Positions 517 through 26,772 of a stretch of DNA of 26,772 nt are shown piece by piece. The position numbers were made by a program, and so were the translations under genes. The notes under the pieces are model-generated. The model was given only the letters and a program-made list of their open reading frames with translations. It was not told the DNA's origin and ran no database searches. The stretch comes from a virus. Every line of letters starts with the position of its first letter. Position 1 is the first letter of the stretch. Location of the stretch: IMG/VR virus record IMGVR_UViG_3300005921_000013, positions 1 to 26,772 of that record; one strand, given 5' to 3'.

Positions 517-517
517 C

Positions 518-1122: not shown

Positions 1123-1123
1123 A

Positions 1124-4975: not shown

Positions 4976-4979
4976 TGGG

Positions 4980-5807
4980 TCAGGCCGTGAGTTTTCTGAC
5001 TCGCGCCAGTTCCGCTTTACCGGCCAAGGTAAGCATGGAGGCAGGCAACTCTGACAGCCCGTACACCGGTTCAACCCAGCACGAACAAAAAGGCTCTTCC
5101 GCCACGGCTGTCACCTCGTCGTAGTATTGATGGCCATCCAACTTCACGAAGCCGCGCTTCATCGCCCAGCTCCCGCGCAACAAGAATATTCTGCCGTCGC
5201 GCTCGACGTGCTCGGGCCGAGAGTCATACGCTGGCGGACCTTGTTTGATGTGCCTCCAGATATAGGCAATAGCCCCGCCGTCCACCGCGATGATATCGTG
5301 TATCGCGGCCACCAGTTTGTGGCCCTGATCGATGATGACCACGCGCTCACGGTGCGGCAGCCCTGAGATCGATCGGCGTATCAGTTCGCCCTCCTGCGCC
5401 TTATCGACCGCCTTGGAGCCGCCCGCAGGAATGGATGTTGCCCAACCTGCCAGGCGCTGCAGCGCGCGTTGACGCGAGGCCTTCTGATCCAGTGTGATCA
5501 GACTGACCGATGCCAGAATGCGACGATTCAATTCCGCTCGCAGCCGTGGTGCCAACTGCTGCAGCTTGAACATCGGCACGCCAGGATGGCGCTTCATCAA
5601 GGCAGAGGGTCTGCGAACGGTGCGCTCGAAGATCTGCGTGAGATGCTGGGCGAGCCTTTTCTGCAGCTCGTGCGCCGGCATGAGCGTCGCGCTCATCGAG
5701 GTCTCGATGCGTGCCAACCACTGCTCCAGCCGAGCCTGGGAATCAAAACCGTGAGCTGCGAACTCGCGTATGGCCTCGTTGACCACCGCGTAGAAATTTC
5801 CTCTCAC
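4980..5807 (-). CDS. Head morphogenesis protein, Mu F / SPP1 gp7-like
   Basis: This 275-residue minor head protein probably acts at the portal vertex during head assembly. The N-terminal 140 residues are helical and basic. The diagnostic part is the C-terminal domain: ELIRRSISGLPHRERVVIID (141-160), then YDSRPEHVERDGRIFLLRGS (194-213), then YYDEV (228-232) and EEPFCSCW (237-244), which match the Mu F-type core in which an arginine/histidine-containing YDxRxxH segment precedes a Cys-x-Cys site. The start overlaps the end of the portal gene by four bases, the usual portal-then-F order. Confidence 0.82.
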   Translation of the reverse strand: MRGNFYAVVNEAIREFAAHGFDSQARLEQWLARIETSMSATLMPAHELQKRLAQHLTQIFERTVRRPSALMKRHPGVPMFKLQQLAPRLRAELNRRILASVSLITLDQKASRQRALQRLAGWATSIPAGGSKAVDKAQEGELIRRSISGLPHRERVVIIDQGHKLVAAIHDIIAVDGGAIAYIWRHIKQGPPAYDSRPEHVERDGRIFLLRGSWAMKRGFVKLDGHQYYDEVTAVAEEPFCSCWVEPVYGLSELPASMLTLAGKAELARVRKLTA

Positions 5808-8536: not shown

Positions 8537-8537
8537 T

Positions 8538-10154: not shown

Positions 10155-10173
10155 GAGATGTTCCTCCGGAACT

Positions 10174-10398
10174 CTAAGGGTTGAGTGGCGCGCCGCCGGA
10201 ATTCATCACTGGCGCGCCGTCACTGTTGGTGACGACTGTTGAGATGGACGTCGTGAGAATCATTTCATCCGATGCGAGCGCAAGCGAAAGCGTGATCAGA
10301 TAGTTCTTGCCGTTGGCGGCCACAGATAACTTGAATGGCACGCCGATCTTTAGCGCTGGCACTGGGACCGCTGGGGCTGGTGCGAGATCGGCTGACAT
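10174..10398 (-). CDS. Small hypothetical protein without export signal
   Basis: This 74-residue protein has no recognisable family. After a Pro/Ala-rich start (ADLAPAPAVPVPAL) come short beta-prone segments (FKLSVAANGKNYLITLSLAL) and a Gly/Asn/Pro-rich end. It lacks a signal peptide, unlike both flanking genes. Its ATG overlaps the stop codon of the glycine-rich gene by one base (TGATG), so it is translationally coupled. It may be an accessory or chaperone-like partner of the adhesins, which is conjecture. Confidence 0.65.
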   Translation of the reverse strand: MSADLAPAPAVPVPALKIGVPFKLSVAANGKNYLITLSLALASDEMILTTSISTVVTNSDGAPVMNSGGAPLNP

Positions 10399-12365: not shown

Positions 12366-12380
12366 GGTTTTAGCGCGGTC

Positions 12381-12755
12381 CTACTGCGGGTACATGCTCA
12401 AATTCACGGTCGGCGTTCCCGTGCCGCTCAAGGCCGTGACATTTCCGCGCACGTACGGCCATGCGGGAGATGTCACGGTCGTGGAGCCGAACAACGGATT
12501 CGAACTGCCTAAGGCAATCGTGGCGATGACGACCCACCCGACACCAGGATCCTGCGTGGCCTCGACATTGACGCTGGCGATTCCTCCAGTCGTGACCGAG
12601 GCCAGGAACGAGGAGGACGGATACTGCCGCCACGAAAATTGCGCCCCTGCCCCGGTGGCGGTGACGGCCTGCAGGAGGTAGGTGCCAGGAGACAGCGCTA
12701 GCGCAGGAAGCGTCAGAGCCAGACACGCTACCAGCGCCGATAAAAGCCGCTTCAT
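12381..12755 (-). CDS. Small exported beta-rich protein
   Basis: This 124-residue protein begins with a textbook signal peptide (MKRLLSALVACLALTLPALA, cleavage probably after the ALA). The mature part of about 100 residues is beta-prone, with FSWRQYPSSSFLASVTTGG and WVVIATIALGSSNPLFG. I do not recognise a family; an Ig-like or small jelly-roll fold is plausible. It sits between two larger exported fibre-like genes and is co-directional and closely spaced with them, so it is probably co-expressed. Confidence 0.72.
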   Translation of the reverse strand: MKRLLSALVACLALTLPALALSPGTYLLQAVTATGAGAQFSWRQYPSSSFLASVTTGGIASVNVEATQDPGVGWVVIATIALGSSNPLFGSTTVTSPAWPYVRGNVTALSGTGTPTVNLSMYPQ

Positions 12756-12760
12756 GGCTT

Positions 12761-13525
12761 TCAGCCCTGCAATGCGTTCTTGCGGCAGTGCATATGACCC
12801 GTAGCCGTGAGTGCCGCGACGGTGAATGTGGCGAGCGAGACGTTGTACACCGAAGTCACCGCGCTCAAGGCCTGGCGCACGTAGGGAGTGGTGAATACCG
12901 GATCATTGGTGCCGGTGAGCACATTCGCTGCGGTTTCAAAGTCGGTATAGGTACCCAAATTGCCAATCGTGGTCGCGGTCTGAGAAATGCCCTGTTGCAG
13001 ATTGGTCACTGAAGTGGAGGTTGCTGGCACGTAGAAAGTGCTGCCCATGCAATCCCAATCCCCGGCCGGCAGACTCACGCCAGCGGTCGGCAGTCCCGCA
13101 GTGGTGGTGAGCGCGAGCGTGCTGGTGAGATTCGCGGTGCTCGAGGCGCCGGTAGTCGCGACGAAAGTTCCAGCCAGAGCATTCGCGGCGCTGGTGGCCA
13201 CATTGAAGGTGCCAGCCGAGACGCTGATCGGCACGATCCAGTAGTTGGTCGAGGACGACAAACCGGTTGGCGGATTGGCGGTGATCGTGATGGGGCAGGT
13301 CCACACGGCAATGGCTGAGCCAGACCACGGAGGCGAGGCCCATGTGCCCACCGTGGGCGTTGCGTTGGTGAAGGATACGGACGCACCGGAGGTCGCGCTC
13401 GGGCAATTGACCTCGACGTACTGGCCGGGATAGGTCGTCTGTGCCAGCGCTGGAGTGGCGATGGTACCCAGCAGAGCCAATGCAATGGCTGCAATCAGAC
13501 TTGCACACAGGGAATTGAGCTTCAT
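12761..13525 (-). CDS. Exported hypothetical protein, beta-rich, with paired cysteines
   Basis: The ATG at 13525 is chosen because GAGGAG lies eight bases upstream and the resulting N-terminus is a signal peptide (MKLNSLCASLIAAIALALLG ... ATPALA|Q). An upstream in-frame ATG at 13609 would place 28 hydrophilic residues before the signal. The mature protein, about 225 residues, is Thr/Ser/Ala-rich and beta-prone. It has four cysteines (VNCPSA, WTCPI, DWDCMG, MHCRK) that could form two disulfides outside the cytoplasm. The segment STNYWIVPISVSAGTFNVAT recalls repeats seen in phage and surface proteins. A hairpin terminator lies just upstream, so this gene may have reduced expression or its own start. 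No family recognised. Confidence 0.74.
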   Translation of the reverse strand: MKLNSLCASLIAAIALALLGTIATPALAQTTYPGQYVEVNCPSATSGASVSFTNATPTVGTWASPPWSGSAIAVWTCPITITANPPTGLSSSTNYWIVPISVSAGTFNVATSAANALAGTFVATTGASSTANLTSTLALTTTAGLPTAGVSLPAGDWDCMGSTFYVPATSTSVTNLQQGISQTATTIGNLGTYTDFETAANVLTGTNDPVFTTPYVRQALSAVTSVYNVSLATFTVAALTATGHMHCRKNALQG

Positions 13526-13549
13526 GACATCGACTCCTCGAAGGTTTTG

Positions 13550-13578
13550 GAAATAAAGAAAGGCTCGCGAAGGCGAGC
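13550..13578 (-). terminator. Rho-independent-type terminator after the beta-helix gene
   Basis: On the minus strand, GCTCGC-CTTC-GCGAGC forms a tight 6-bp stem with a four-base loop (13578-13563), followed by CTTTCTTTATTT. It lies about 45 bases after the stop of the 717-residue beta-helix gene and about 35 bases before the next start, so it may split the exported cassette into two expression blocks. Confidence 0.6.
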
Positions 13579-13622
13579 TTTGGACTAAATTGTTGGTTCG
13601 CTCTCTCATCCGCTGCGGACTA

Positions 13623-15776
13623 TCAATGCAGCGTCACCGAGCCGCGAATGTTGACATTTCCCCTGATCGTCTCACGGATGTTACTTGCAGAGGAAAAGTA
13701 AGCGTTAAGCACATAGTTGCCGGATAGTTGACTAGGAGTCGCCAGACTGCGAGTCGTCGAGCCCTCTGTTTCAGTCGCCCAGTAAGGCCAGCCAGCGCCA
13801 TTGACGTATTGCTGGATCAGAATGGAAGGCGCCCACAGACTTGAATTATTAACGATCATCGCAGCCCCTGTGGCGCCGGTCGCAGAGCTAGGATAGATCC
13901 ACTGCGTGTAGATCTCGGCTTTTGCTCCGACACTGAGGCTGAACACCGAATTGGTGGTAGCGATTTGCTCCGTCTTTAAGGCAAGTATCCATAGATTGCA
14001 GCCAGCGCAGAAAATCTCTGAACCGTTGGTCGCGTACTCAAAATCAAACTGCCGCGCCCAGATGCTCTGACCTGCAACGAATACTACGCCAGGATGATTG
14101 CCGCCAGTGTCGTCTTCAAAGAAAACGTTTCCAGCTCCGGCAGATGCGGTGTAGGTCCGGTAATAAGAGTCGTTGATGACAACTGTTCTGGACCCGGTAT
14201 GCAGGAATGTACATACGTCATAAATGCAGCCGTCGATGACAAGCGGGGTGGAGGAGCTTCCGGCAACTGTGATATTGAAGGTCGGATTCTGGGCTGTGTT
14301 CAGACTGTTATAGAAATTCAGATGATTGACCGTATCCGGCACCGTAATGCCGATCACACCGCTTCCGGTGACGTAAGTCCCGGGTGGTGCATAGACTGTC
14401 GCCGATGCCGAGCCTGAGATTTGCGAAGGCCAGTTAGCTTGGTTGGTTCCCAGCACCGTCCAGTTTGATTGCGTCGGATCATCTGTTGGATTAGGAGTCT
14501 CGGCTTCCGGAAGGTGCAAGTACCCAGGAGTTCCGCCGAAAAGACTTGATGCAGTGCCGGTCCAGTTTTCCGTCAGATTACCTGTGTACGTGACCGGAGT
14601 TCCTGTCCCGGTATCCACTTCGCATGGGCTGTAACTGCCGCAGGAAACGTTGCGGGCGTAAAGGGTTCCACCTGAGCCGACCGTGATCCCAGTTCCTGAG
14701 CCGTTCAAAAATTCTGAGTCGAGCAGCGAGACCGCACCGGGAGACGTGATACTCAGCGCCGCAGTGGTATTGTCATTCAGCCAGTGCTGGATAGCTGCAT
14801 TGTAGGGACCTGTATTGATTGCAGTGCCTACCTGGCCTTCCGTGGTGATCTGATCGAAGGTCTGTGAGTATTCGTTATTGATGCTGGCGATAGCGTTCGT
14901 GCAGCCATAGATCGCCACATTCTTCACAATGCCTGGACCGGAATATGCCCTGGAAAAGGTAAGCGCATTGGCGCACTGCGAATCCTCAGCCCAGATGACG
15001 ACATTGCGATAGGCACCTGAATTATTTTCCTGATCCGCGATCAATTGGATGCCGGGGTTTCCGTAGCCGGCATCAAATCCCATATTGTAGACGTAATTGC
15101 GGAAGCTGCTCGCGGTGCTAACTGAGTTGGTGTTGATCCACACGTTGTTTGCAGCAATCCCGCTATTAGGAGCCAGCCGCAGGATCGAACTTTGAGGTCC
15201 GCTTCCGAACCAGGTAAAGCCATTGCCGCAGGGCTGTACTTTATTGCTGACTAGATAGACACCTGCTGGCCAATACAGATACAGCACATGCGTGGGCGTG
15301 GCCCCGCAATTGCCGTTCATATAGACCGCGAGCAATGTGTTCAGACATGTGGTGTTGTCTGTCACCCCATCCCCGACCAGGTTGCATGTCGCATTGCTTG
15401 TCACGTTGAGCGCTGGATTCGTCGGGCCTCCGAAGAATCCAGGGGGATAGGTGACGCTTGGAGTTAGGTTTGCGCCGTTTCCATCCGAGGCTATGACCAC
15501 AAGATTGTTGTTAGCCGTAGCGATCGAATATCCGCTGCACGCGAATGTCCCTGCGGAAATCGTGATCGGATAGGTGCCGGGCGAAGATCCAGAGGTCGCC
15601 GTCGTGCTTAGAGTCGGAGCTCCGGTACACGTGGTCGTGTAGGTGTTCTGCGACCAGATCAATGGGGGCACAGGCTGGCCCTGTTCCATCGTCAGATGTG
15701 TCGCAGTCAACGTGATGGTCTGCGCGAAGGCGGATACCGGGAGCAGTAACAGTGCAAGAAGCAGGCGCATTTTCAT
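13623..15776 (-). CDS. Exported right-handed beta-helix protein (pectate lyase/GH55-like)
   Basis: This 717-residue protein has a clear Sec signal (MKMRLLLALLLLPVSAFA|Q, cleavage after residue 18). Residues 20-96 form an Ig-like MBG-type domain (CTGAPTLSTTATSGSSPGTY). From about 130 the sequence matches the pectate-lyase superfamily entry pattern GDGVTDNTTCLNTLLAVY, followed by YWPAGVYLVSNKV (168-180), and long Asn/Gly/Ser-rich beta-helix coils. A second such entry appears near YAPPGTYVTGSGVIGI, as in two-lobed GH55-type folds. Related phage proteins are depolymerases that cut capsule, LPS or exopolysaccharide; catalytic residues cannot be assigned here. Many cysteines fit an oxidising compartment. 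The start follows the upstream stop by two bases without a clear ribosome binding site. Confidence 0.8.
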   Translation of the reverse strand: MKMRLLLALLLLPVSAFAQTITLTATHLTMEQGQPVPPLIWSQNTYTTTCTGAPTLSTTATSGSSPGTYPITISAGTFACSGYSIATANNNLVVIASDGNGANLTPSVTYPPGFFGGPTNPALNVTSNATCNLVGDGVTDNTTCLNTLLAVYMNGNCGATPTHVLYLYWPAGVYLVSNKVQPCGNGFTWFGSGPQSSILRLAPNSGIAANNVWINTNSVSTASSFRNYVYNMGFDAGYGNPGIQLIADQENNSGAYRNVVIWAEDSQCANALTFSRAYSGPGIVKNVAIYGCTNAIASINNEYSQTFDQITTEGQVGTAINTGPYNAAIQHWLNDNTTAALSITSPGAVSLLDSEFLNGSGTGITVGSGGTLYARNVSCGSYSPCEVDTGTGTPVTYTGNLTENWTGTASSLFGGTPGYLHLPEAETPNPTDDPTQSNWTVLGTNQANWPSQISGSASATVYAPPGTYVTGSGVIGITVPDTVNHLNFYNSLNTAQNPTFNITVAGSSSTPLVIDGCIYDVCTFLHTGSRTVVINDSYYRTYTASAGAGNVFFEDDTGGNHPGVVFVAGQSIWARQFDFEYATNGSEIFCAGCNLWILALKTEQIATTNSVFSLSVGAKAEIYTQWIYPSSATGATGAAMIVNNSSLWAPSILIQQYVNGAGWPYWATETEGSTTRSLATPSQLSGNYVLNAYFSSASNIRETIRGNVNIRGSVTLH

Positions 15777-15778
15777 GG

Positions 15779-18700
15779 CTAGTTCTTGTACTCAAGCACG
15801 GAATAGTCACTTACTATGACCCAGTCAAACTGCGATGTTTGGATGAAATCCTGAAAGGTGTAGTTCGCAGCGTTCGCCGTGTTGATAGAACGGGGAGTGG
15901 AAGTCGGGGTGGCGCTGTTGACGTAATAGATGTTGTCCTGTGACGTGGCCACCCCAGTATTGATGGTCGTGCCCTTGACTCCGACCAGCGTCGTCGTACT
16001 CATCGCATTGCTGAGTACGCCGTTAGATCCAAAGTTGGCAGCACAGGTCTTGCTGCCTGCGCTGTTATTGGCGGTACACCTGAATTCAACTGTCAGCTTG
16101 CCTTGGGCGCCCATGGTGCCGGCGCCGATGGTCGTGCTAGGACCATAAACAGCGTTGATAGTCTGTGCATACGCTGCCGGTGTGAGACCTGAGAATGCAG
16201 TGGTCGATGGAACAAGGGGAGCAGTATTGGCGGTATAGGTGTTGTTGAAGCATGTCACTACCGCCAGGGAGACTCCCTGACAGAAGTAAGTTCCAGCCGC
16301 TCCCAACGGGCTCGCTGGAAGCCCGACAAACATGTTCGCGTGCACCGCATCCAATGGTGCTGAGAACAGTTCTCCGAGCGTGTAAGTCAAACCTGTCGGA
16401 GTGCCAGTTGTGGTGACGACAGCCGCTCCGGACTGCGTTGTCAGCGTAGCGGACCCCACAGCGGCAGCACTGATGAGGTACGTCGTCGGGTTAGAGTAGC
16501 CCGTGATCGATCCGGTACCTCCGAAAGTGCCGGAAATAGTCAGAGACATGCCGTTGACAAGATTCGCGCAGGTGCAGGTGATCTGTCCTGCAGTACCGCT
16601 TATGACTACAACCGAGATCGTTGCCGCACTCAACCCAGCAGCGTTGGTAGCTGTGTAAATCGGACCGCTCACCCACGGCGTAAATGGTCCTGTGCCGGAA
16701 GCGGTTGCCGAGAGCGTACAAGTGGCAACCGTGCTACTGCTGAAAGCCGTGATCGCGCAGACTTTATAGGTCGTGTCCAAGAACACGATCTGCCGACCGA
16801 CATCTCCAGCGCTGGTGCCTGTGAGCGTAGCCGCGCTGAATGTCGCCGTGACTGATCCACTGGTCGCGCTGAATGAAACGGTCTGCCCCGAAACCGGCTG
16901 CTGCCCAAAGATGCAATTGCCGGTGGCATCGCAATAGCCGCTGGGAGCTGCAACAAAAGGCAATCCGCTTTGAAGCGCGACCGGAGAACTCGGAATGCAT
17001 CCGCTCGTGGTGATGCCGAGATTGGAATCGTTACAGACAGCGGTTCCTGGCGCGCCGGTGAGGCTTGCAGCAGTCGGTATATTGGTGTCCGTCCCGAGCA
17101 GCGGATAAATTGATGACGCAACGGCGCCCGATCCATTAGGCGCTCCAGTGACCCACGCGCCACCGCTGCCGGGACTAGATGGAGGCTCATAAACCGCGCC
17201 CGTAGTGACTGTAGGTGGCGCAGCCCATGAAACCGCGCCAGAAACAGCAGCGGGCGCTATAGAAGTCGGAGTCATATCGATCTGAGACGATTGGACATTA
17301 CTCATCGTCTCGCTGCCGACAGTCTGGGAAACGCTGACGGTGTAACTACCTGTCCCTCCGGTGCCGGTGCCGAGCGCACTGATAGTTGTCCCGGCTGTAA
17401 TCCCCGTGCCAGTGATTATTTGGCCCACACCCAACGAAACTCCGCTACTTAGGGCTGTGACATTGAGTGTCGTGCCGGAGATCGATGCTGTGAATGTGCC
17501 GCCGCCGCCAACCGCCATTGGCCCTGTTATCACAGGCGTCGTTAGGTCTAGATCAGTGAGCGACCCCGTCGCCGCTCCGCTGAAGATCGGATTGATATAC
17601 GTCTTGTTAGACAGCGTAGCAACATCGCTCACACCATCGATCGCGCTGCCGCCGTTGCTGAGAACGCCGCTAGGAAGATTGCCGGACGCCAACCCGGTAC
17701 TCGGAGGCAGCCCGGTGAGATTCGTCGCTACACCGGAGGCAGGAGTGCCCAATGCTGGAGTGACCAATGTGGGCGAGGTTGCCAGAACGGTCGCGCCCGT
17801 GCCGGTGCTGGACGCGAAGGACGTAGTGGCAGATCCGGCCGTCGTCGTGACCACTCCGCTCAAAGCGGGCAATGCAGTGGCTGGAAGTGCGCTCGCGTTG
17901 CTCAGATTGATCGAGGAGGGCGTTCCAAGAGCCGGAGTCACAAGACTCGGGGATGTTGCTTGAACGAGCGCACCGGATCCGGTAGTCGTCGCAGCGATAA
18001 TTTGATTGGAACCGTTGGATGCGAGCGCGGGGGCGGAAGTCGGAATCACCGCGCCGTTGACCTTCACCACGCTCATTGCCAGAGAACCGGCGCTATTGGT
18101 CGCATCTCCCGTGTGCGCTGGTTCTTGAGCCGCCTGCAATGTGCCGGTGACGCCGGTGGCCAATGGCAAGCCGGTTAGATTGGTGAGCGTGCCGGATGAT
18201 GGGGTTCCCAGTGCTGGCGACACCAGAACGGGCGACGTCGCTTGAACGATGGAGCCACTGCCGGTAGTGGTTGCCGCAATGATCTGGCGCGATGAATTGG
18301 AAGCCAGCGCCGCTGAGCTCGCCGGCACTGCGGCGCCATTTACTTGAGCGACGCTCGGATTGGGATAGCTACCGGACAGATCCCCGCCCGCGCTGCCCGA
18401 AGGGATGGCCCCAGTAATGGCGGTATTGCTGGCGGATGTGAGCCGGCCATCGGCTCCGACCGTGAAACTTGCAACCTGCGTGCCGCTGCCATAACTGCCG
18501 GCCGTGACCGCGGTGGCTGGCAATCTGGCGGCTGGCAAACTGCCGCTTGAGATATTGGCCGCATTGGTCGTGTCGGTGGTCGCAGAAGGCGCGAACGCGA
18601 CGCCGCCCGTTTTGGTGACGCTCGTAGTAAGGCTGCCAGCCGTATTGGTCATGTCCCCGGTATGCGCGGGCTCCTGTGCGGCTTGGAGCGTACCGGTCAG

Positions 18701-19591
18701 GCCAGTGGCCGGAAGCCCTGTGCCATTGGTCAGCGTCACGGCTGATGGAGTGCCCAGATTAGGCGTGACCAGCGCCGGACTGGTGGCTTGTACCGTAGCA
18801 CCGCTCCCGGTGACCGAGGCGAAGCCAGGGTTAGGATACGTGCCGCTCAATACCCCGCCAGCTGCACCGCTTGGAGGCACCCCGGTGATCGCGACATTGG
18901 CCGCAGCGCTGAGGCGCCCGTCAGCCCCTACGGTGTAGGTCGGGATCTGGGTGCCCGAGCCATACGATCCTGGAGTGACGGCAGTGGCTGCCAGGGAGAT
19001 CACGCCCGATGCGGATAGTGTGGCCGCCCCGCTCAGGGTCTGCGGGACATAAGCCGTGCCGCCTGAGTTGCCGACAGGAATCTGTCCTGCCGTGGGAGCA
19101 CTGGATGAGCCAAGGCCGCCCAGGCCAGCCCCCAGCGGGCCGGTGATGCCACCGGTGGTCAGGTTGAGCAGCGTTGCCGTGGAGCCCGCGCTCGTGGTGA
19201 CCGGACCGGTGAAGGCCGGCAACGTGCTGGATGTGCTCCTGCAGGTCCCATCCGCGTAGGGCACGAGCGTACTTGGGCTCGAGGTGCATGACGTCCACAG
19301 CCCGATGATATCGCCGAAGGTTGCCGTACCGGCGCTCGCCAGGTGCGCGCCAGTCCCGAACATGTTGTAGAGCGGGTTGACGGCGTTGTTGTACTTAGCA
19401 CCAAAGATCGCCCAGGTGTCGCCCGTGTTTGTGTTGAACGGGCCGGTGAGCGTGCAAGCGGTGCTGGTTGCGCAGTCGGCGACTGAGGCGGAGAACGCCG
19501 GCGCAAACTGGGCCTGTGCCATTGGAGCGCCCGCAATGATCGCTAGCACACCAATGCCTGCCGCGATCAGCAGCCGCTTGATTGAGGTCAA
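15779..19591 (-). CDS. Large exported tail-fibre-like repeat protein
   Basis: This 1270-residue protein starts from TTG at 19591, preceded by GGAG with a nine-base gap, and opens with a signal peptide ([20 protein letters not shown] ... MAQA|Q, cleavage near 27). After a short N-terminal part with cysteine pairs 40/46 and 102/117 comes a repeat zone (about 165-640). It has two long units containing GSYGSGTQ ... TVGADGRL ... SYPNP, and four copies of the TSPxLVTPxLGTPS motif. Next is an Ig-like module ([20 protein letters not shown]) and a beta-rich C-terminal domain ending YSVLEYKN. The repeats are typical of phage fibre shafts. Role as adhesin or fibre is likely; location is unusual because of the export signal. 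It is the first gene of the cassette after the terminase region. Confidence 0.8.
17708..18791 (-). repeat. Tandem-type repeats within the large fibre gene
   Basis: Four copies encoding variants of TSPxLVTPxLGTPSxxxLTN lie near 17708-17789, 17881-17963, 18166-18247 and 18708-18791. Two copies of a unit encoding [13 protein letters not shown] lie between them. A fifth copy of the first motif is in the glycine-rich gene near 11410-11500. They could support recombination between fibre genes. Confidence 0.7.
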
Positions 19592-19616
19592 AGGATGTTA
19601 TCTCCGGGATCTGGTT

Positions 19617-20051
19617 TTAAGGTGTGCGCACGATCTCGAACAGGGCGCGCCGCGTATACACGTTATCCGTGCCGTCGGTCACACTCACGAGCAGCGCGTG
19701 GGTTTCGCAGGAACGGCTCACAGAAACCATGGCGTTCTGCGCCGCGCTGATAATGATGTTGCTGTTGGATTGAAGCGGCAACTGTGTCGGGCCTAAGATT
19801 ACTTCCCCTGAGAGAAGATCAACGATCTGATAACTGAGCGCAGCCGGCTCCAGAGGCGCCCCATTGATATCGAAATAGGTGCACTGGAAGTTGGCAGCGC
19901 TGCCCGACAGAAAGGCTGCACGCGGGGTCAGGAAACCTATTCCGCTCTGATTGAGCGGCACGATCGTGGCATAACCGAACTGACTGGCGCCGCTGATGAA
20001 CTGCGTGTCGCTGTCGATCGTCTGGCCAGTGGTATCTATGGTATCTGCCAA
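19617..20051 (-). CDS. Hypothetical Ig-like beta-sandwich protein
   Basis: The 144-residue product starts from TTG at 20051 with GAGG eight bases upstream. It has no signal peptide. The central part, YFDINGAPLEPAALSYQIVD followed by LSGEVILGPTQLP, and the C-terminal ETHALLVSVTDGTDNVYTRR suggest a beta-sandwich of Ig type, a pattern common in small phage structural proteins encoded near terminase or tail genes. It lies between the nuclease-like ORF and the exported cassette. A structural or connector role is possible; no named family is recognised. Confidence 0.7.
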   Translation of the reverse strand: MADTIDTTGQTIDSDTQFISGASQFGYATIVPLNQSGIGFLTPRAAFLSGSAANFQCTYFDINGAPLEPAALSYQIVDLLSGEVILGPTQLPLQSNSNIIISAAQNAMVSVSRSCETHALLVSVTDGTDNVYTRRALFEIVRTP

Positions 20052-20082
20052 CTAGAATCCCTCTGGGTTACCTAAAGCGGCT

Positions 20083-20637
20083 TCAGCTACCCGTCTGCAG
20101 CGCCAGGAGCGTGCCGGTGCACCAAGCGTTCAGCACCTCCACGGCATCGGCTTCTTGGCCCGCTCTGTAGCCCTTGATCTGACGCAAGAGGTGGTTCGCG
20201 TTGGTGCCCTTGAAGTTCTGTGTCTTCTCGAATGCAGGGGGCGCAAGCTTCACCTGACCGGCATGCATGAACACCATGGCCTGCGTGGCGCGGCCATCCA
20301 GATCCAGTTCAGCGATATCCTCGCGTACCTCTCGCACGTCATGGCCAGCCTTGTGAGCCTCCAGCATGACTACTTTGCCAAAGCCAGCGGCCTCGGCGTA
20401 TAGCACCATGTCCTCCGGATAGAGAACAGCCTTGTACAAACGTGCCAGCTCTTGCAGCCGCCCGAACACGCTTGGTACATACGTCGGTAGTCCGGTCTCG
20501 ATGGGCGTGATGCTCCAGTCAATTGCCATCAGCGGTGTCTGGTCCCACGAACAGAACGAGAAATACACCGTGCCCAATGCCTGACGCAGCGCCGAGGCGG
20601 CCGAGACCGCGAATACCGTCTCCACGGCAGGCAGCAC
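20083..20637 (-). CDS. Stand-alone TerL nuclease-domain-like protein
   Basis: This 184-residue protein is separate from the full-length terminase just upstream yet resembles the C-terminal RNase H-fold nuclease domain of another terminase type. It has CSWDQTP (29-35), matching the WD motif that carries the first metal-binding Asp; a helix with RLQELARLYKA (60-70); VLYAEAAGFGKVVML (78-92), where E82 matches the acidic residue of the IED-x-G motif; RATQAMVFMHAGQVKLAPPA (116-135), resembling the RA...AGxVxLP motif; and EADAVEVLNA (162-171), where D164 matches the final Asp. A GTG start at 20637 has AGGAG ten bases upstream. It could be an accessory packaging nuclease or a terminase remnant. The assignment rests on motif order only. 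Confidence 0.55.
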   Translation of the reverse strand: MLPAVETVFAVSAASALRQALGTVYFSFCSWDQTPLMAIDWSITPIETGLPTYVPSVFGRLQELARLYKAVLYPEDMVLYAEAAGFGKVVMLEAHKAGHDVREVREDIAELDLDGRATQAMVFMHAGQVKLAPPAFEKTQNFKGTNANHLLRQIKGYRAGQEADAVEVLNAWCTGTLLALQTGS

Positions 20638-20658: not shown

Positions 20659-22263
20659 CTAGCGTCGAGCCAGCAGCGCCGATTCAGGGAAGAAGCTGCT
20701 GTCGCTGCAGGGGGCGAATGCGATACATACCGCATCTGCCAGATTGGGAGACTTGAAACCGGCCGGGGCTTTCTCGATCAGCACTTTGCCTGCTCCATTG
20801 ATCGAATAGGTCGGTTGCGACAATTCCTGGGTGAGTTGCGCAAGTTCTGGCAAGTCCTCGGCAATCGATATCAACTCGTCCGTGTCGAACTTGAACCCGG
20901 GCTCGTTGAGCGCCCGATGCGTGTGCTCGAATCGCTTGCGCAGCGCCATCCAAGACTGCGACTTGAGATTCGCGAAGTGGTCACGATTCGTGCGTCCCGG
21001 TACCATCTCGCCATCCGGGTCGCTGGGCGGGGCACTGCCGCGGTAGGCATGATCGTCTACCCAACTCTGCCCGTGCTCACGACGCTGCTCGTTGATGACC
21101 CGCGAATCCCCGCGCACGCCGGCCCCAAGGCCATCGGCATCATAGTGGAACGAGGCATATCCAAGGGTGTCGCACAACAGGAAGCATTCCTGCACAGTGC
21201 TGAAGATGTCGCGCGACTTGCCAGACCATGACTTCAGGTGCTGCAGTTCCTGTCCGTATCGACCGGCAAAGGCGTTGCGGTCCAACCCCTCGTCGGCCAC
21301 ATCCAGCGCAGCTCGGTGCTCGCCGGATGCCGCGAGTCCGAGCTTTGACAGTGCCCCTACCGCGCTCTGCACCCATTCGGCCGGGATCAGGATGCCTTCC
21401 TGGGATGCCAGATAGTTGATATCCAGTTCCTGAGCGGTGATCACCGGTCCCCACTGCTCGAGGAACTCCTCGTACATCTTCTGCGTGAATCGCGGGTTGT
21501 CACGCCAGTGGAACGTGAACTTGCGCGAGAAGCCGTCGTGCATGCGCAGCGAGAAAGTGTTGCCCATACCGTGTACCGAACTGATGTCCTGGCGGCAGTT
21601 CGTATTCTTTGACAGCGCGGCGTCCACGCCCTGGTCGCGTTCCAGATAGGCCGCCTCGTCCACGAAGTACACCGCAGTTCGACCGCCGCGGCCGATCTGA
21701 TCGCCAATCTCACCGATCATCGATGACTTGCCTCGATTCGGAAATAGCAATCGGCAATCACGGCTGTGGTAGCGGCGGTCGTATCCGCCACGTAGTTCCA
21801 AAGGAAGGCCGTCGAGGAACGCGCGGGCCTTCTCGAAGAGCGAGCCCATGTCGCCGGAACGATCAACCTTGTCCTGCTTGTAAGAACCCAAGCCGACAAT
21901 CACATTGTCATACAGTGTGCACAGGGCGATCGCGAACGACACGGCGAGCCAGGAGCATCCCACGTCACGGCTTTTTTCTGTGCCGCCATAGCGCCCGTCG
22001 CGCCAGTTCAACTCCGTGAACTCAATCCACTCGCGCTGCCGCTTATCGAGCGTGAATGGCATGAATACCGGCAGACCCGTCCCCACGTTTCTGGGGTCGA
22101 ACGTCGTTCCCCACTCGTTGATGAAATCAGCGATGTGCGTGCGGTAGTAAGTCCTGATCTGCTCGAAGCGACCCGGTGCCGAGCGCAACCAGCGAAGGCG
22201 GCGCGCGCGCTCGCGCCAGAGCCCATCAAAGGGGTCAAGTCTCTCAACGGCTGAGGAACTCAC
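20659..22263 (-). CDS. terL: Terminase large subunit (packaging ATPase/nuclease)
   Basis: The motor protein that pumps DNA into the prohead and cuts it. The 534-residue protein has an adenine-binding region (PFTLDKRQREWIEF, 69-82), a Walker A-type loop EKSRDVGCSW (96-105), a Walker B segment AVYFVDEAA (197-205) with the catalytic Glu, and a coupling motif near SSVHGMGNT (228-236). The nuclease half begins with ALDVADEGLDRNAF (319-332), where D321 and D328 are candidate metal ligands, and continues with FHYDADGLGAGVRG. The GTG start overlaps the stop of the small subunit by four bases (GTGA), so the two are translated together. Length and domain order are normal, so it is complete. Confidence 0.9.
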   Translation of the reverse strand: MSSSAVERLDPFDGLWRERARRLRWLRSAPGRFEQIRTYYRTHIADFINEWGTTFDPRNVGTGLPVFMPFTLDKRQREWIEFTELNWRDGRYGGTEKSRDVGCSWLAVSFAIALCTLYDNVIVGLGSYKQDKVDRSGDMGSLFEKARAFLDGLPLELRGGYDRRYHSRDCRLLFPNRGKSSMIGEIGDQIGRGGRTAVYFVDEAAYLERDQGVDAALSKNTNCRQDISSVHGMGNTFSLRMHDGFSRKFTFHWRDNPRFTQKMYEEFLEQWGPVITAQELDINYLASQEGILIPAEWVQSAVGALSKLGLAASGEHRAALDVADEGLDRNAFAGRYGQELQHLKSWSGKSRDIFSTVQECFLLCDTLGYASFHYDADGLGAGVRGDSRVINEQRREHGQSWVDDHAYRGSAPPSDPDGEMVPGRTNRDHFANLKSQSWMALRKRFEHTHRALNEPGFKFDTDELISIAEDLPELAQLTQELSQPTYSINGAGKVLIEKAPAGFKSPNLADAVCIAFAPCSDSSFFPESALLARR

Positions 22264-22688
22264 TTCTGCGCGGCTGATTCCGGCGTAAGCATCTGCAGAT
22301 AGGCCTGCATGCCAGCAGCGTCGTCAACCGGGCTCACCGCCACCGCGGCTGTAATCGGACCACCATTCGCACCTGTGAGCTCGGTGCTGTTGTAGTCCTT
22401 CCAGCCCAATTGCTTCAGGCTGAAGATGGCCATCGTGCAATTGACCTCGCCCTTCAACGCCTTAGATTCGAGAGCCGCTTCTTTCTTGGAGACGCACCGT
22501 TTCAGAGCGTCCTCTAATTCTGGGAATTCGTAGAGCCTCTGACGATATAGGCCGTTCTTGTAGGCGAACTCGGAGAGGATGGGAATCTCAGTAGATTCAA
22601 TGTATTGCTCAAGAGCAACGAGCAGCTTGGCACGGTCGTAGGTGCGAGGAGCCCCAACAGGATTTTTCTCTTCAGGTTTGGATGTCAT
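22260..22688 (-). CDS. terS: Terminase small subunit
   Basis: The DNA-recognition partner of the packaging motor. The 142-residue protein has a basic GAPRTYDRAKLLVALEQYIE start (13-32), a helix-turn-helix-like stretch SEFAYKNGLYRQRLYEFPEL, and the typical KEAALESKALKGEV followed by TMAIFSLKQLGWKD, a segment common in this terminase family. A flexible Ala/Pro-containing tail probably contacts the large subunit. It lies directly before terL with a four-base overlap. The leader contains an inverted repeat, a candidate recognition element. Confidence 0.85.
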   Translation of the reverse strand: MTSKPEEKNPVGAPRTYDRAKLLVALEQYIESTEIPILSEFAYKNGLYRQRLYEFPELEDALKRCVSKKEAALESKALKGEVNCTMAIFSLKQLGWKDYNSTELTGANGGPITAAVAVSPVDDAAGMQAYLQMLTPESAAQK

Positions 22689-23079
22689 AGAACTCGGATC
22701 TCGGGCCTTTCACACATCATCGCTTCACGTGCCGCTGTTCTTATTCTGAGCGCCACGGTCAAAACCTTGTCAATACCCTGCTTCGCAGCCGATTGATTCG
22801 TCAGCAAAGATAACGCGCATCGCTGATCTCCTTGATTTGAGTAGACATCGCCGCCCCCACCGTGACGAGCGGCTATCACTCGCCACGGTGGGATCATCCT
22901 ACGGGGATAGGTTCTGCGCGGGCTGGACTGTCATTCCAAATTCCTTGTCGTCACCACGTTGGGCATCTATGACCCGTGCACCGGGCCGCCACGTGATCTA
23001 GCGACAGCTACAGTCCGCCATCGCAGGAATTCGCAAACCGAACGCTACCGAAATCTCCCCTTTGCTTCGCTGGTTGTAA
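22689..23079 (-). other. Leader region before the terminase genes, no convincing gene
   Basis: About 390 bases separate the tandem-paralogue genes from the terminase small subunit, the largest gap in the window. It holds a long inverted repeat (22856-22892) and a smaller one around GGTGCACGGG near 22980. A 70-codon frame (22897-22685) ends with its stop overlapping the terminase start as ATGA, but it has no ribosome binding site and unremarkable composition. A TTGACA at 22773-22768 with CAGAAT 19 bases downstream is a weak promoter candidate. Packaging-site or leader-RNA functions are possible. Confidence 0.5.
22856..22892 (-). repeat. Long inverted repeat upstream of terminase small subunit
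   Basis: On the minus strand CCCACCGTGGCGAG and CTCGTCACGGTGGG form a 14-bp stem around a nine-base loop; the one non-Watson-Crick position is a G-U pair in minus-strand RNA. No U-tract follows (GGCGGCG), so it is not a terminator. It could be an RNA hairpin in the terminase leader, a protein-binding operator, or part of a packaging (cos/pac) site. Confidence 0.7.
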
Positions 23080-23316
23080 TTACTTTGGCTCCCAGGCCGG
23101 AATGTAGATTTTAACTTTCCCGTTAGCACCGAAATCCAAAACGGCATCGCTCTGCGGCGTGAACGGTGGACGCTGATCGATGACAGGTTGCAGCCTCTCG
23201 GAAACGTACGCGACGAGTTTGTCGTGCCGCATGGTTGGCATCGGCAGCATCGCCAGGATCTGGCGCTCCATGGCCGCACCCAGCAATTGCGTCGCGAGTT
23301 TTTCGCGAAGCATCAT
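23080..23316 (-). CDS. Small protein, second of two tandem paralogues
   Basis: This 78-residue protein begins MMLREKLATQ and ends with VKIYIPAWEPK; PPFTP (50-54) lies in between. The start at 23316 overlaps the preceding stop by four bases (ATGA). The N-terminus, the PFTP element and the PxWEP ending match the gene just before it, so they arose by duplication. Helical first half, beta-rich second half. No family recognised. An in-frame start at 23430 would overlap the neighbour heavily and is rejected. It is the last gene before the terminase leader. Confidence 0.68.
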   Translation of the reverse strand: MMLREKLATQLLGAAMERQILAMLPMPTMRHDKLVAYVSERLQPVIDQRPPFTPQSDAVLDFGANGKVKIYIPAWEPK

Positions 23317-23633
23317 GGCGCGTAGTACACCGAGCCGTCCAACCCATGATGAAGCCTCGGCGGCTCGGGCTGAGCGTGCTGGAATATTTCGAACTCGATG
23401 GGATCCTGCAGGACGCGCACTGGTTCCCACTTTGGAACAAATACCTGCACACCAGTGAGTCCGTATAGGTCAAACGTCAGCGTCATGCGCGGAGTGAATG
23501 GCGCGAGCTCGATGGAGTTGAGCGCCGCTCGAAATTCTATCAAGGTTAATGGCGACATGATGAGCATCGTCCCAATCACTTCCTTCACCCGCGCCTCGAC
23601 GAGCTGCCGCGCAAACTTCTCTCGCAGCATCAT
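23313..23633 (-). CDS. Small protein, first of two tandem paralogues
   Basis: A 106-residue protein starting MMLREKFARQ at 23633, where the ATG overlaps the upstream stop as ATGA. It shares MMLREK, APFTP and VQVFVPKWEP with the next gene, but has a C-terminal extension of about 35 residues rich in Pro, His and aromatic residues. The predicted layout is a helix pair followed by a small beta element. The role is unknown; it belongs to a late-operon block ahead of terminase, where small lysis, nuclease or packaging accessories are common. Confidence 0.68.
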   Translation of the reverse strand: MMLREKFARQLVEARVKEVIGTMLIMSPLTLIEFRAALNSIELAPFTPRMTLTFDLYGLTGVQVFVPKWEPVRVLQDPIEFEIFQHAQPEPPRLHHGLDGSVYYAP

Positions 23634-23866
23634 GCGTCGTCTCGCTCCCAGTCTTCGTAGCAACCCGGGGTGATGCAAGCGTCAATGGCATCCTCATCCT
23701 GTGCCGAAACAGGTCCAGTCTGTCCGGACAGATACCGGATGGGGATCTGTCTCTCAATCGCTATTTCGCGAATGAGCCGATCCAAATCCGCGGAAGCCTC
23801 TTTCAGGCTGCGCGGCTCTGGGAAATTGGCCACCAGTGAATCCGGGCCAATCATTTCGTGAGGCAA
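23630..23866 (-). CDS. Small acidic hypothetical protein, first gene after the leader terminator
   Basis: The 78-residue product is acidic, with an amphipathic helix (LKEASADLDRLIREIAIERQ) and a Cys/Asp-rich end (DACITPGCYEDWERDDA). The start is uncertain: TTG at 23866 or ATG at 23854, neither with a good ribosome binding site. The stop overlaps the next start (ATGA), so it heads a coupled trio with the tandem paralogues. It lies about 55 bases after the leader terminator, so its expression probably needs readthrough. No family recognised. Confidence 0.6.
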   Translation of the reverse strand: MPHEMIGPDSLVANFPEPRSLKEASADLDRLIREIAIERQIPIRYLSGQTGPVSAQDEDAIDACITPGCYEDWERDDA

Positions 23867-23920
23867 AGCGCCAAAACCATTTACAGCAAACCCCTATAAA
23901 TCCTTGACCGCGAGTATGCC

Positions 23921-23962
23921 ACAAACAAAAAAGGCCGAGAAAACTAGTGTTTTCCCGGCCTT
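23921..23962 (-). terminator. Strong rho-independent terminator
   Basis: On the minus strand, AAGGCCGGGAAAAC and GTTTTCTCGGCCTT form a 14-bp stem (one G-U pair) around an ACTA loop, followed by TTTTGTTTGT. The G-U pair and U-tract exist only on the minus strand, so the terminator serves leftward transcripts: the early cluster and the proposed short leader RNA. Confidence 0.88.
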
Positions 23963-24045
23963 CATCGCAAACCTACCAACGAGATCAGCCGACTTTTGGA
24001 CATGAAAAACCTCTGAGAGCATGAGGTGTCCCAGAGGGGTCGGCG
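23921..24045 (-). ncRNA. Candidate structured leader/small RNA with own promoter and terminator
   Basis: From the proposed start near 24045 to the terminator is about 125 nt with no well-supported gene. Read on the minus strand, GCCGAC (24044-24039) pairs with GTCGGC (23993-23988), enclosing a second stem CCTCTG (24037-32) with CAGAGG (24015-10). The loop bases GGACA (24031-27) can pair with TGTCC (24002-23998) to make a pseudoknot. The 3' end is the terminator. By analogy it could be the terminated late-leader RNA of a Q-type antitermination system (lambda 6S RNA), or an independent regulatory RNA. The remainder of the 265-base gap around it holds only the promoter. A 42-codon frame (MLSEVFHVQK...) crosses it but lacks a ribosome binding site. 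Confidence 0.55.
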
Positions 24046-24051
24046 AAGCGG

Positions 24052-24081
24052 AATGTACGCCGCTTTGATCGCACCTGTCAA
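24052..24081 (-). promoter_or_regulatory. Sigma70-like promoter, candidate late promoter
   Basis: A perfect TTGACA at 24081-24076 is followed after 18 bases by TACATT (24057-24052, four of six consensus matches). It lies just after the stop of the 209-residue gene and fires towards the terminator and the structural genes. This is the best promoter match in the window. Confidence 0.6.
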
Positions 24082-24131
24082 CTTTTGTCATCGGAATGCT
24101 CCGACAGCCAGCCACTCGGCGGCAGTTGCCA

Positions 24132-24761
24132 TCAGCCTTGCGCCGGATGTTCGCTCAATCGCGACTGGATCATGGATGCCGCGGTACCCAGCCATCGCAG
24201 CCAAACAAATCGCAGCGCGAAGTAGCGACTGGCGACCTCGCGATCCCAACTGCGCTCGCTGATCTGAAGATACCAGGCGTACAGCTGCGGGCACACCGCG
24301 AATTCATTCGGGCAGAAGTCCTCGTCCAGAATCAGCTTGGCGAGCCAGGGGATGTAGGGGCGTGCGAGGCCATGGATGTCAGTCACCGTCTCGGGCCAGC
24401 AGTTCTGGTGCTGGATCTGCACAGCCTCGCGCGTAAGCCCGATACGCAGTCGATCGAAGTAGCCACGTGCGCCGGCGAAGGCGTAGCACGCCGCCCAGAA
24501 CTGCATCTGCGGCACTCCGCGTGCGGCTTGCCCCAACTCGGCCAGTGTGTAACTGGGGCGCTTGGAACTGCGCGTGGCTTTTCCGCGAGCTTCATCGCCC
24601 GATGGTTGCAGCAGCACATAGGCGCGTCGACCGCCTTCGAATTTCATCAAGCGCACATCGCGTTTGGGTTTCGCCGCACCGATGCGCGCGGCTTTGATCA
24701 GGTCGACACCGTGGGCGGCGGCGAGCGCGATCAACTGTTCTGCCGGCGGGGCTCGGCTCAT
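24132..24761 (-). CDS. Hypothetical protein; position suggests a late regulator
   Basis: The 209-residue protein is not from a family I can name. The N-terminus (PPAEQLIALAAAHGVDLIKA) and basic stretch (AAKPKRDVRLMKF) are followed by a region with many aromatic residues (MQFWAACYAFAGARGYFDRL) and a helical, Arg/Trp-rich C-terminal part (WDREVASRYFALRFVWLRWL) that could bind nucleic acid. It is the last gene of the early cluster and lies directly before a promoter-leader-terminator unit, the place of gene Q in lambdoid phages. A role in late antitermination is inferred from position only. Its ATG overlaps the upstream stop (ATGA). Confidence 0.7.
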   Translation of the reverse strand: MSRAPPAEQLIALAAAHGVDLIKAARIGAAKPKRDVRLMKFEGGRRAYVLLQPSGDEARGKATRSSKRPSYTLAELGQAARGVPQMQFWAACYAFAGARGYFDRLRIGLTREAVQIQHQNCWPETVTDIHGLARPYIPWLAKLILDEDFCPNEFAVCPQLYAWYLQISERSWDREVASRYFALRFVWLRWLGTAASMIQSRLSEHPAQG

Positions 24762-24955
24762 GGCTCGCGCACCTTGAGCACCGTGGCTGCGGTCTCCAGT
24801 CCATCCGAAAGCGATGTGGTGATGACAGCCACCCCGTTGCTGAAACGCCAGTGCCTGATAGGTTCGCGCTGCCGAAGTTTAAACACGCAGTAGCCCTGGT
24901 CGCGCACCCAGCGGATGAGCAGGCACACGCGCGCACTGTCGCCCAGATCGGTCAC
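24758..24955 (-). CDS. Small hypothetical protein
   Basis: A 65-residue basic protein (MTDLGDSARVCLLIRWVRDQ ... VLKVREP) with alternating beta-like segments, for example GYCVFKLRQREPIRHWRFSN. It overlaps both neighbours by four bases (ATGA), which strongly supports it as a real coupled gene. No family recognised. Confidence 0.65.
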   Translation of the reverse strand: MTDLGDSARVCLLIRWVRDQGYCVFKLRQREPIRHWRFSNGVAVITTSLSDGLETAATVLKVREP

Positions 24956-25182
24956 GACTTGGCTGCCTCGGCGCGCTGCTTGTATGCCATCTCAGCGGCG
25001 TTTTGCAGTTGAGACCCCATCGAGTTGGCAGCTTCCGGTGGCATCACCACAATCCCGGTAGCTGGATTGAGAACCAGCAGCACCTCGCCTTTGTGCGCGA
25101 CCACCGAGCAGCCCTGATGTTGGGACGAGCTTTGCGCCGCAGGCATGTCGCCCAGCAACTTCGTTGAATCATTCTCAGCCAC
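24952..25182 (-). CDS. Small hypothetical protein
   Basis: A 76-residue protein from a GTG start with GAGG eight bases upstream. It has a beta hairpin-like centre (CSVVAHKGEVLLVLNPATGI) and a helical Ala/Glu/Lys-rich end (LQNAAEMAYKQRAEAAKS). It overlaps its neighbours by eight and four bases, consistent with an operon of small early genes. Function unknown. Confidence 0.62.
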   Translation of the reverse strand: MAENDSTKLLGDMPAAQSSSQHQGCSVVAHKGEVLLVLNPATGIVVMPPEAANSMGSQLQNAAEMAYKQRAEAAKS

Positions 25183-25462
25183 GCAGCCACCTCACGAAGT
25201 AATAGATTGCGAACACGAACCCCCAACATATCCCTGCCAGCACCAGTCCAAGCGCCAGCGTCAACCAGTCGTGGCCGGTTTCAAGCGCGGCCAGACGCGG
25301 CTTTCGTGATATCGCTTCTTCGCTGACAATCATGCCTGGCGCTTCCAGATATTGATTGCCGGGGTACAGCGTCACCTCGATGGTCACGATGTTGGGGACT
25401 CCCTGCCGATCGAATTCAATCTTCGCGCGGCGCTCGGCGAAGCGTGGATGGATGTCGTTCAT
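25175..25462 (-). CDS. Small membrane protein with one C-terminal helix
   Basis: The 95-residue protein has a soluble N-terminal part of about 65 residues (FDRQGVPNIVTIEVTLYPGN) and one hydrophobic helix near the end (LTLALGLVLAGICWGFVFAI) closed by a basic RWLRG. This predicts a tail-anchored inner-membrane protein with the N-terminal part in the cytoplasm. The start overlaps the resolvase stop by four bases. It does not resemble a typical holin. Possible roles include membrane attachment of replication or superinfection control; none can be assigned. Confidence 0.68.
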   Translation of the reverse strand: MNDIHPRFAERRAKIEFDRQGVPNIVTIEVTLYPGNQYLEAPGMIVSEEAISRKPRLAALETGHDWLTLALGLVLAGICWGFVFAIYYFVRWLRG

Positions 25463-25947
25463 AGCTTAGCCTCCTTGAGTTTGAACTCGAGATACCATCT
25501 TGCGAGCAAAATAGCCTCTGCCTGCCCCTCGTATTCGGCCGTTGGTAGATACGCGCTCGGATAGAGTTGACGCGCCAACGCGAGCGATGCCGACTTGTCC
25601 TGCTTCAGCAATCCCAGCGCTCGCTTCCACTGTACCGGCGTGCACAGGACAATAGGTTTACAGAACATCGAGAACGCGGACATGATGCCGCCGAACATCG
25701 CACCAAATTTGAAGACGCTGGAAACCCCGTCCGCAGGACGAGAAGCGACGCGCTCGACGACGAATACGCAATCGTCAGGCACCTGAGATCGCGCAGTCTG
25801 GACGAAGACGCTAACCGCAACGGCATCAACCCAGCGGCTTTTCTTGTCTCGGCACACTGGCATCGGGACGGCAACCGCGATGCTGCTGTCAGTTCGCAGC
25901 ACCGCGATTCCTCCGGCCACTCCAGGGTCTGCCGAGAAGATCAGCAT
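25459..25947 (-). CDS. RuvC-like Holliday-junction resolvase
   Basis: This 162-residue protein is a probable structure-specific endonuclease of the RNase H fold that trims branched DNA during replication or packaging. It starts with FSADPGVAGGIAVL, where D7 is the first metal ligand. It continues with a buried strand ending in VVERV (Glu as second acidic ligand) and closes with KSASLALARQLYP and EGQAEAILLARWYLE, matching the C-terminal AEA-LLA helix of phage RuvC-like resolvases. Length is typical. It lies three bases after the acidic-tailed protein and overlaps the next gene by four bases, a recombination/replication cluster. Confidence 0.82.
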   Translation of the reverse strand: MLIFSADPGVAGGIAVLRTDSSIAVAVPMPVCRDKKSRWVDAVAVSVFVQTARSQVPDDCVFVVERVASRPADGVSSVFKFGAMFGGIMSAFSMFCKPIVLCTPVQWKRALGLLKQDKSASLALARQLYPSAYLPTAEYEGQAEAILLARWYLEFKLKEAKL

Positions 25948-25950
25948 GGC

Positions 25951-26583
25951 TCAATGCGTTGCTGGCTGATCCCCGATGCCACCGCTGCGTGTGCTCTTCT
26001 CCTCATCCTCTTCCTCGTCATCGTAGTCATCATCCGGACCTATGCGCGCGCCGCCTTCGCCCAGCTCGAGGCCCTGTTGCTTGGCATCGGCTTTGGGTTT
26101 GGCTTCCTCATCGACGGTCGAGCCAAAATAAATCGTGACAGATTCTTGGTGACCCTGGTGGGCGTAGAGCATGCCCATCTCTTTGTCGGTTGGATAGCCC
26201 TGTAGTTTCACCGAGACCATCGTGGTGCCGCCGTCCTGGCACTCGAAGATGACGTCCTTGATCTTGATCTTCTTCAACTCGATTTTGGTGTCATTCATCG
26301 CGAACGCGATCACCGCTTTGGATTTGTAGTAGACGTGAATCAGGCGCAACTCGCCGAACATCGGCAGCATCGGTTTGTAGACCTTGGAGTTGCCGCGGCC
26401 CTCCTCGGTGTAGAGCGCGGCGGCGACGTACTTGCCGCACAGCTTGTCGACGTCCTCGCGATCGAATGGCACGCCTTTGAGGACGATGTCGCAAGCGTTG
26501 ACGACTTCATCCCCATGATTTTCTGTCCTGGGGTTTAATTTTCCGATGATGCAGTTGCGTTTGCTAAAGCTGGTCAGTGGCAT
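25951..26583 (-). CDS. Acidic-tailed phage protein, possibly SSB-like
   Basis: A 210-residue protein with a beta-rich body (FSKRNCIIGKLNPRTENHGD near the start; GELRLIHVYYKSKAVIAFAM; VIFECQDGGTTMVSVKLQGY) and a strongly acidic tail (PDDDYDDEEEDEE). This architecture, an OB-like beta domain plus an acidic C-terminus, is typical of phage single-stranded-DNA-binding proteins, and the neighbour is a RuvC-like resolvase. However, the tail continues past the acidic run with STRSGGIGDQPATH rather than ending in the usual hydrophobic tip. AGGAG lies ten bases before the ATG. SSB function is inferred. Confidence 0.68.
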   Translation of the reverse strand: MPLTSFSKRNCIIGKLNPRTENHGDEVVNACDIVLKGVPFDREDVDKLCGKYVAAALYTEEGRGNSKVYKPMLPMFGELRLIHVYYKSKAVIAFAMNDTKIELKKIKIKDVIFECQDGGTTMVSVKLQGYPTDKEMGMLYAHQGHQESVTIYFGSTVDEEAKPKADAKQQGLELGEGGARIGPDDDYDDEEEDEEKSTRSGGIGDQPATH

Positions 26584-26772
26584 TGGTAGGTTCTCCTGAC
26601 TGGTTGATGAGCGAAATTGTCTCAGGCCGAATCATCCAACCTTCGGCCGCGGATACGAAATACAGGACGTCGCGAGCGAGTGCAGCGTTAGGCAGCGCGG
26701 TATCCATGACTGCAAATATTTCCTGGCGTTGCTTGAACAACTCCGCCGGCGCGAGCGCTGCAGCCACAGCCG
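26564..26772 (-). CDS. C-terminal part of a gene cut by the window edge
   Basis: The frame is open to the window edge. A GTG at 26767 could be a start, but no upstream sequence is available to judge it, so the gene may be longer. The visible 67-69 residues are helical (LFKQRQEIFAVMDTALPNAA) followed by YFVSAAEGWMIRPETISLI. It overlaps the next gene by 20 bases. No family recognised. Confidence 0.5.
   Translation of the reverse strand, partial: AVAAALAPAELFKQRQEIFAVMDTALPNAALARDVLYFVSAAEGWMIRPETISLINQSGEPTNATDQL

Follow-up and report, generated by a model that had tools for sequence, protein, structure and literature searches.

A probable Q-type late-gene switch: a promoter and terminator directly behind the gene of a 209-residue phage protein with a predicted Q/AlpA fold

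We propose that the IMG/VR record IMGVR_UViG_3300005921_000013, the whole of which (26,772 bases) is the window analysed here, carries a lambda-like, Q-type switch for its late genes with a 209-residue protein, p209, as the antiterminator, and we consider this reading probable. The last genes of the early cluster, on the minus strand, are a Holliday-junction resolvase gene (25459-25947), small genes and then p209 (24132-24761). A gap of approximately 265 bases follows, with a promoter and an intrinsic terminator inside it, and behind the gap lie three small genes, the small terminase subunit (22260-22688; PHROG 309, E 6.6e-5), which is among the first late genes, and the large terminase subunit (20659-22263; PHROG 2, E 9.3e-17), all on the same strand. 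The original prediction, made from the sequence alone, had described a pR'-6S-tR'-like switch with the 209-residue protein as a Q analogue. Our data strengthen this part through the predicted fold of p209 and the recurrence of the promoter and terminator in relatives, and weaken the alternative offered with it, a put-type or conserved RNA, since the leaders of relatives differ.

A promoter and a terminator lie between p209 and the late genes

We found that the promoter, TTGACA-18-TACATT (24081-24052, minus strand), matches the consensus at 10 of 12 positions and ranks first among the 26,772 minus-strand positions scored with a sigma-70 position matrix. Consensus and matrix scans place its -35 element, TTGACA, at 24076-24081, 50 bases past the p209 stop codon, and its -10 element, TACATT, at 24052-24057. 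A TTGACA promoter between the early cluster and the late genes had been predicted, and it is there with the top matrix score. One observation named beforehand as speaking against the switch, a promoter of their own for the late genes, did not appear: a consensus scan of both strands of bases 1-20000 returned zero promoter-like sites (shuffles averaged 6.1), and the three other consensus matches within 22000-26772 (22441, 25025 and 25657) are all on the plus strand. The empty scan of 1-20000 suggests that promoters inside the late operon are selected against. The promoter spacer, searched together with GACA and with up to 3 mismatches allowed, occurs a single time in the window. The arms AAGCGG/CCGCTT, 8 bases apart, form an inverted repeat (24046-24065) that is centred on the -10 element and may be a protein site or chance.

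The terminator hairpin (23963-23930, minus strand) has 15 pairs, counting weak closing pairs, and a loop of 4, and is followed by TTTGTTTGTG in a U-rich tract that runs to about 23920. It is tR'-like, and it is the terminator that had been predicted with 14 bp. The hairpin alone has a z of -7.5, with none of 200 shuffles equally stable, and its exact pattern had 0 matches when IMG/VR was scanned for it. Both the promoter and the terminator are clearly non-random. Through a 12-base near-repeat (10/12; 23958-23969 and 24062-24073), a portion of the promoter spacer recurs at the base of the terminator hairpin, at about chance level.

The promoter and terminator recur behind p209 homologs

Homologs of p209, 32 to 46% identical, were found in eight IMG/VR loci. 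As an IMG/VR query, p209 alone retrieved no relative, and alignments of 4 and 7 sequences retrieved the same 8 loci. In locus L010, the closest relative, TTGACA-17-GACAGT lies downstream of the p209 homolog with a terminator 96 bases behind it, and after the terminator a 204-residue gene occupies the place of the small terminase, directly before the large terminase. In L082 and L080 the promoter and terminator are not immediately behind the homolog: they stand in the non-coding stretch that comes next, with the promoter 400 and 497 bases past the p209 stop, respectively. The promoters of L081 and of the near-identical L002 and L025 begin 2 and 10 bases past the stop of the homolog, and no terminator was found behind them by a scan that also misses lambda tR'. 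Neither L078 nor L079 has a clear promoter or switch downstream of the homolog. The missing terminators and switches in these loci, and the distances in L080 and L082, count against the proposed switch. A TnpB/IS605 OrfB-type gene lies near the p209 operon of L078 (7083-8249) and could be the reason for the lack of a clear promoter-terminator pair there.

We compared the gaps after p209 with other gaps that were all co-directional and 100-700 bases long, in loci with at least 50% G+C (36 sequences, window included). A promoter was found in 6 of 6 tabulated gaps after p209, which represent five distinct gaps given the near-identity of L002 and L025 (5/5), and in 7 of 71 other gaps; promoter and terminator together were found in 4 of the 6 tabulated gaps after p209, all 4 distinct, and in 0 of 71 others. 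L081, L078 and L079 fall outside this table. Over all distinct p209 loci, a promoter comes next in 6/7 and a promoter with a terminator in 4/7. With L078 and L081 counted as misses, the joint occurrence is 4/7 versus 0/71 (p 2.5e-5), and with the window left out it is 3/6 (p 2.7e-4), values that serve as guides with a crude gene caller and related loci.

A scan of 1,488,242 bases on both strands listed 30 promoter-terminator rows, duplicates included, and as a control it found lambda pR' 42 bases after Q and missed tR'. In L022 (12-205), ahead of the large terminase gene, TTGCAT-17-TATAAT is followed by a hairpin that resembles a terminator, the preceding gene lying outside the stretch. In addition, a csrA gene is located directly behind the p209 homolog and promoter in L002 (2444-2626; PF02599, E 5.9e-17) and in L025 (about 1766-1948), and in both loci it sits between the large terminase and the portal.

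p209 is predicted to have a Q/AlpA fold

No PHROG, Pfam or NCBIfam match was found for p209, and its six distinct homologs have no Pfam or PHROG match beyond chance. Likewise, two scans of genome contigs for p209 relatives found none, tblastn of p209 and the L081 homolog against phage records gave no match, and a sequence-profile search of the PDB returned two chance-level matches only. The lambda Q family (PF03589) and the 21Q family (PF06530), neither of whose Pfam models p209 matches, were each found in 0 of 22 records; PF06323 was found in 0 of 23, an uninformative count given that the controls were likewise without a match. Against a profile of eight lambda-type Q proteins, p209 aligned over 27 columns in the C-terminal helices with E 0.049 and a probability of 1.1%, which is not significant. 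Four cysteines (C118, C121, C144 and C147) are invariant across the eight lambda-type proteins; CxxC pairs number 0 in all 7 p209 homologs, which thus have no two-CxxC zinc finger. Literature searches in an open library, directed broadly at Q proteins and AlpA and at put and other phage RNAs, brought up no paper on the p209 family.

An AlphaFold (AF2) model of p209, built on a seven-sequence alignment, reached pLDDT 74 and pTM 0.70, and its residues 28 to 67 contain poorly predicted stretches. When compared with 474 chains by VIA-align, the model scored Z of at least 5 for four chains only, all of them antiterminators, and the next chain scored 4.6. The four are lambda Q (7ubm_Q, Z 10.6, rmsd 2.9 over 112; 7ubn_Q, Z 10.1) and AlpA (Z 7.8 and 6.5), in a range (under about 13) in which helical proteins may share merely a common arrangement. 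A model of the L081 homolog gave 10.5 for lambda Q, 7.3 and 6.6 for AlpA and 3.8 for the next chain, and it is built on the same seven sequences, so the two models are not independent. Among 98 Foldseek matches from the PDB, lambda Q came fourth and fifth; the E values are weak (1.6 and 1.7), and the rank-4 match has the highest probability in the table (0.66). Among predicted viral structures, the first of 148 matches was annotated 'Antitermination protein Q' (E 4.3e-3, probability 0.99). Q21 is absent among the VIA-align matches listed for the p209 model, and its scores with the model of the L081 homolog are low (Z 2.8 and 2.7).

We find the Q/AlpA fold persuasive because the four chains share a function, are well separated in score from all others and agree with where the gene lies. 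These models suggest that p209 has a Q/AlpA fold that is unrecognised by sequence, and we assign it to neither the lambda Q nor the 21Q family. We claim the fold and a Q-like way of working, and refrain from filing p209 under lambda Q or 21Q because a pause hexamer was not found at the start of the transcript.

Comparison with known antitermination systems

The arrangement resembles that of lambda Q, pR', 6S RNA and tR' in that a Q-like gene is followed by a strong sigma-70 promoter, a short leader, a terminator and the late genes. Even the distance from the stop codon to the promoter is similar, 50 bases for p209 and 42 for lambda Q. Unlike lambda Q, p209 matches no PF03589 model and has no zinc-binding CxxC, and no -10-like hexamer lies at +1 to +7. 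The lambda 6S RNA is about 190 nt long, and the leader here, at 82 nt, is shorter.

Hafnia phage yong1, a named relative by terminase (46.6%), carries an annotated 21-type Q (PF06530) in the slot of p209, between nin genes and the lysis and terminase genes. Its Q gene is followed by 5 bases, a TTGACA-17-AATCAT promoter and then a terminator. A 21-type Q shares with p209 the slot and the promoter and terminator directly after it, whereas p209 belongs to a different sequence family and the structural resemblance of 21Q to the L081 model is weak.

Pseudomonas aeruginosa AlpA, with the alpB promoter and tB, has the fold predicted for p209, no zinc finger, and a promoter followed by an intrinsic terminator. 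AlpA governs a host cell-lysis operon, whereas the candidate p209 would govern phage late genes. For AlpA, PMC9371919 gives a -10-like CACGAT at -1 to +5 and, within the promoter spacer, the element GGGACG, neither of which is in the promoter region of the window. According to PMC6606751 and PMC9371919, every Q protein requires both a binding element in the promoter and a -10-like element at the very beginning of the transcribed region. We found no hexamer with A at position 2 and T at position 6 at about +1 to +7 from the predicted start, where the sigma-dependent pause element usually lies, and this counts against the switch. The test is weak, since the start is predicted and the element degenerate: 29% of random sites score as well as lambda's own. 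The first hexamer with the key A and T in the predicted transcript is CATGCT, near +22.

Known Q proteins (21Q, lambda Q, 82Q and AlpA) have a common mechanism and no sequence in common, and the authors of the AlpA study (PMC9371919) foresaw that structure would bring further Q proteins to light. p209 seems to be one of these, and the promoter and terminator on which it would act lie next to its gene. Furthermore, GafZ of Caulobacter, described in PMC11150451 as an antiterminator with a putative element between -35 and -10, shows that the antiterminator class extends beyond phages. What is new in our proposal is p209 itself, as a member of a family of Q-type antiterminators that only fold and context reveal and that comes with a promoter and terminator of its own. 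The switch gives a testable role to a family that has no Pfam, PHROGs or NCBIfam model, and it provides a search rule for further cases, namely a gene whose following gap contains a promoter and a terminator. Comparison of the conserved promoters could reveal how Q proteins change their binding site and pause element.

A proposed mechanism for the switch

We hypothesize that the promoter at 24081-24052 is constitutively active and that the terminator at 23963-23930 would stop RNA polymerase after about 125 nt, which would leave the late genes off. Transcription of the early cluster would yield p209 last. By analogy with 21Q and AlpA, p209 may then bind the promoter spacer and an early-paused polymerase. 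The 18-nt spacer (24058-24075, minus strand) is the putative place of a Q binding element, in analogy to the QBE and ABE described in PMC6606751 and PMC9371919. Within the RNA exit channel, a ring of p209 could block folding of the terminator hairpin, and the polymerase would read through into the small genes, the terminase and the structural genes. We infer the start site, the p209 binding site, the pause and the readthrough by analogy with these systems, with the start near 24045 set by promoter spacing only. No binding element can be named because the spacer is not conserved between relatives, whose promoter spacers share no motif by eye.

The leader RNA and alternative explanations

The predicted leader is 82 nt long up to the terminator (23964-24045, minus strand), and the nested stems and possible pseudoknot described for it (23988-24044, minus strand) pair as had been predicted: GCCGAC/GTCGGC at 24044-24039 and 23993-23988, CCTCTG/CAGAGG at 24037-24032 and 24015-24010, and GGACA/TGTCC at 24031-24027 and 24002-23998. 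The predicted fold is one hairpin within an outer stem that begins at about +2. A function for this RNA is not borne out, given that the leader alone has a z of -0.7, with 44 of 200 shuffles as stable, and that relatives differ. The 125-nt whole transcript has a z of -4.8 against shuffles, and the terminator accounts for this stability. The pseudoknot pair alone was equalled by 53 of 400 shuffles. Together with its enclosing stem it had no equal among 400 shuffles, although 7 of 178 same-strand windows of equal length did as well. The leader structure is borderline against chance.

We found that the leader of L010 is unstructured (z +1.0), that of L082 takes a different, branched fold (z -2.1), and that of L080 is only 23 nt long. 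These leaders cannot be aligned to one another. Rfam searched over the window and the gap gave no match at gathering thresholds; with E relaxed to 10 it gave two matches, both at chance level. A nucleotide search with the gap gave no match among 76 loci, and a search of phages gave only 13 matches, to Parabacteroides phages with 15% coverage, that are no better than chance. Because the leaders of relatives differ and the leader alone folds like shuffles, we do not regard its structure as a functional element under conservation, although it may have a role in this one phage.

These observations bear on two readings in which the RNA itself is the active part. HK022 put RNA resembles the leader as a structured RNA near a promoter start, and a put-type element would make polymerase termination-resistant without a protein. 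The nested stems and possible pseudoknot lie near the start site, and HK022 putL is similarly placed, just behind its promoter (PMC9378689). The same paper describes put as two stem-loops of about 70 nt in all, a topology that differs from the one hairpin inside an outer stem here. The structure is also not kept in L010, L080 or L082, and a terminator stands right behind it; an element of the put type should overcome that terminator, with the late genes always on. We regard this reading as highly improbable, and the varying length and structure of the relatives' leaders speak against both put-type antitermination and a conserved regulatory RNA. In the second reading the short transcript is a regulatory RNA in its own right, with the switch role secondary; this agrees with the stability of the whole transcript and its outer stem from about +2, and IsrK of Gifsy-1 is reportedly a precedent for a prophage regulatory RNA. 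This second reading is distinctly unlikely in view of the absence of nucleotide conservation in the 76 loci and in phages and of a leader that, by itself, is close to its shuffles.

The terminator sits where the early operon would end, and it might merely end that operon, with an unrelated constitutive promoter making a short by-product and p209 doing something else. This is unlikely: promoter and terminator occur jointly in four of the seven distinct p209 loci and in none of the 71 other gaps, the predicted Q/AlpA fold of p209 speaks against an insulator, and a terminator of that kind would leave the late genes with no visible promoter in 1-20000. It is very unlikely that p209 represents a further Q-type family that loads without an early pause hexamer and uses the pseudoknot leader as a pausing or loading device, in a mixture of Q and put. 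We therefore retain the Q-type switch with p209 as its antiterminator.

Other features of the window

Large terminase and portal genes are usually adjacent. In the window the portal (5804-7345) lies far beyond the large terminase, and approximately 13 kb of fibre-/tail-like genes (7346-20637, minus strand) separate the two. Within this stretch, the gene at 13623-15776 contains a pectate-lyase-like domain and an MBG_2 domain. A 612-residue late protein (2883-4721, minus strand) begins with an N-terminal NUDIX domain (PF00293, E 1e-19), and its long remainder, which is without a Pfam match, includes a lysine/alanine-rich repeat stretch.
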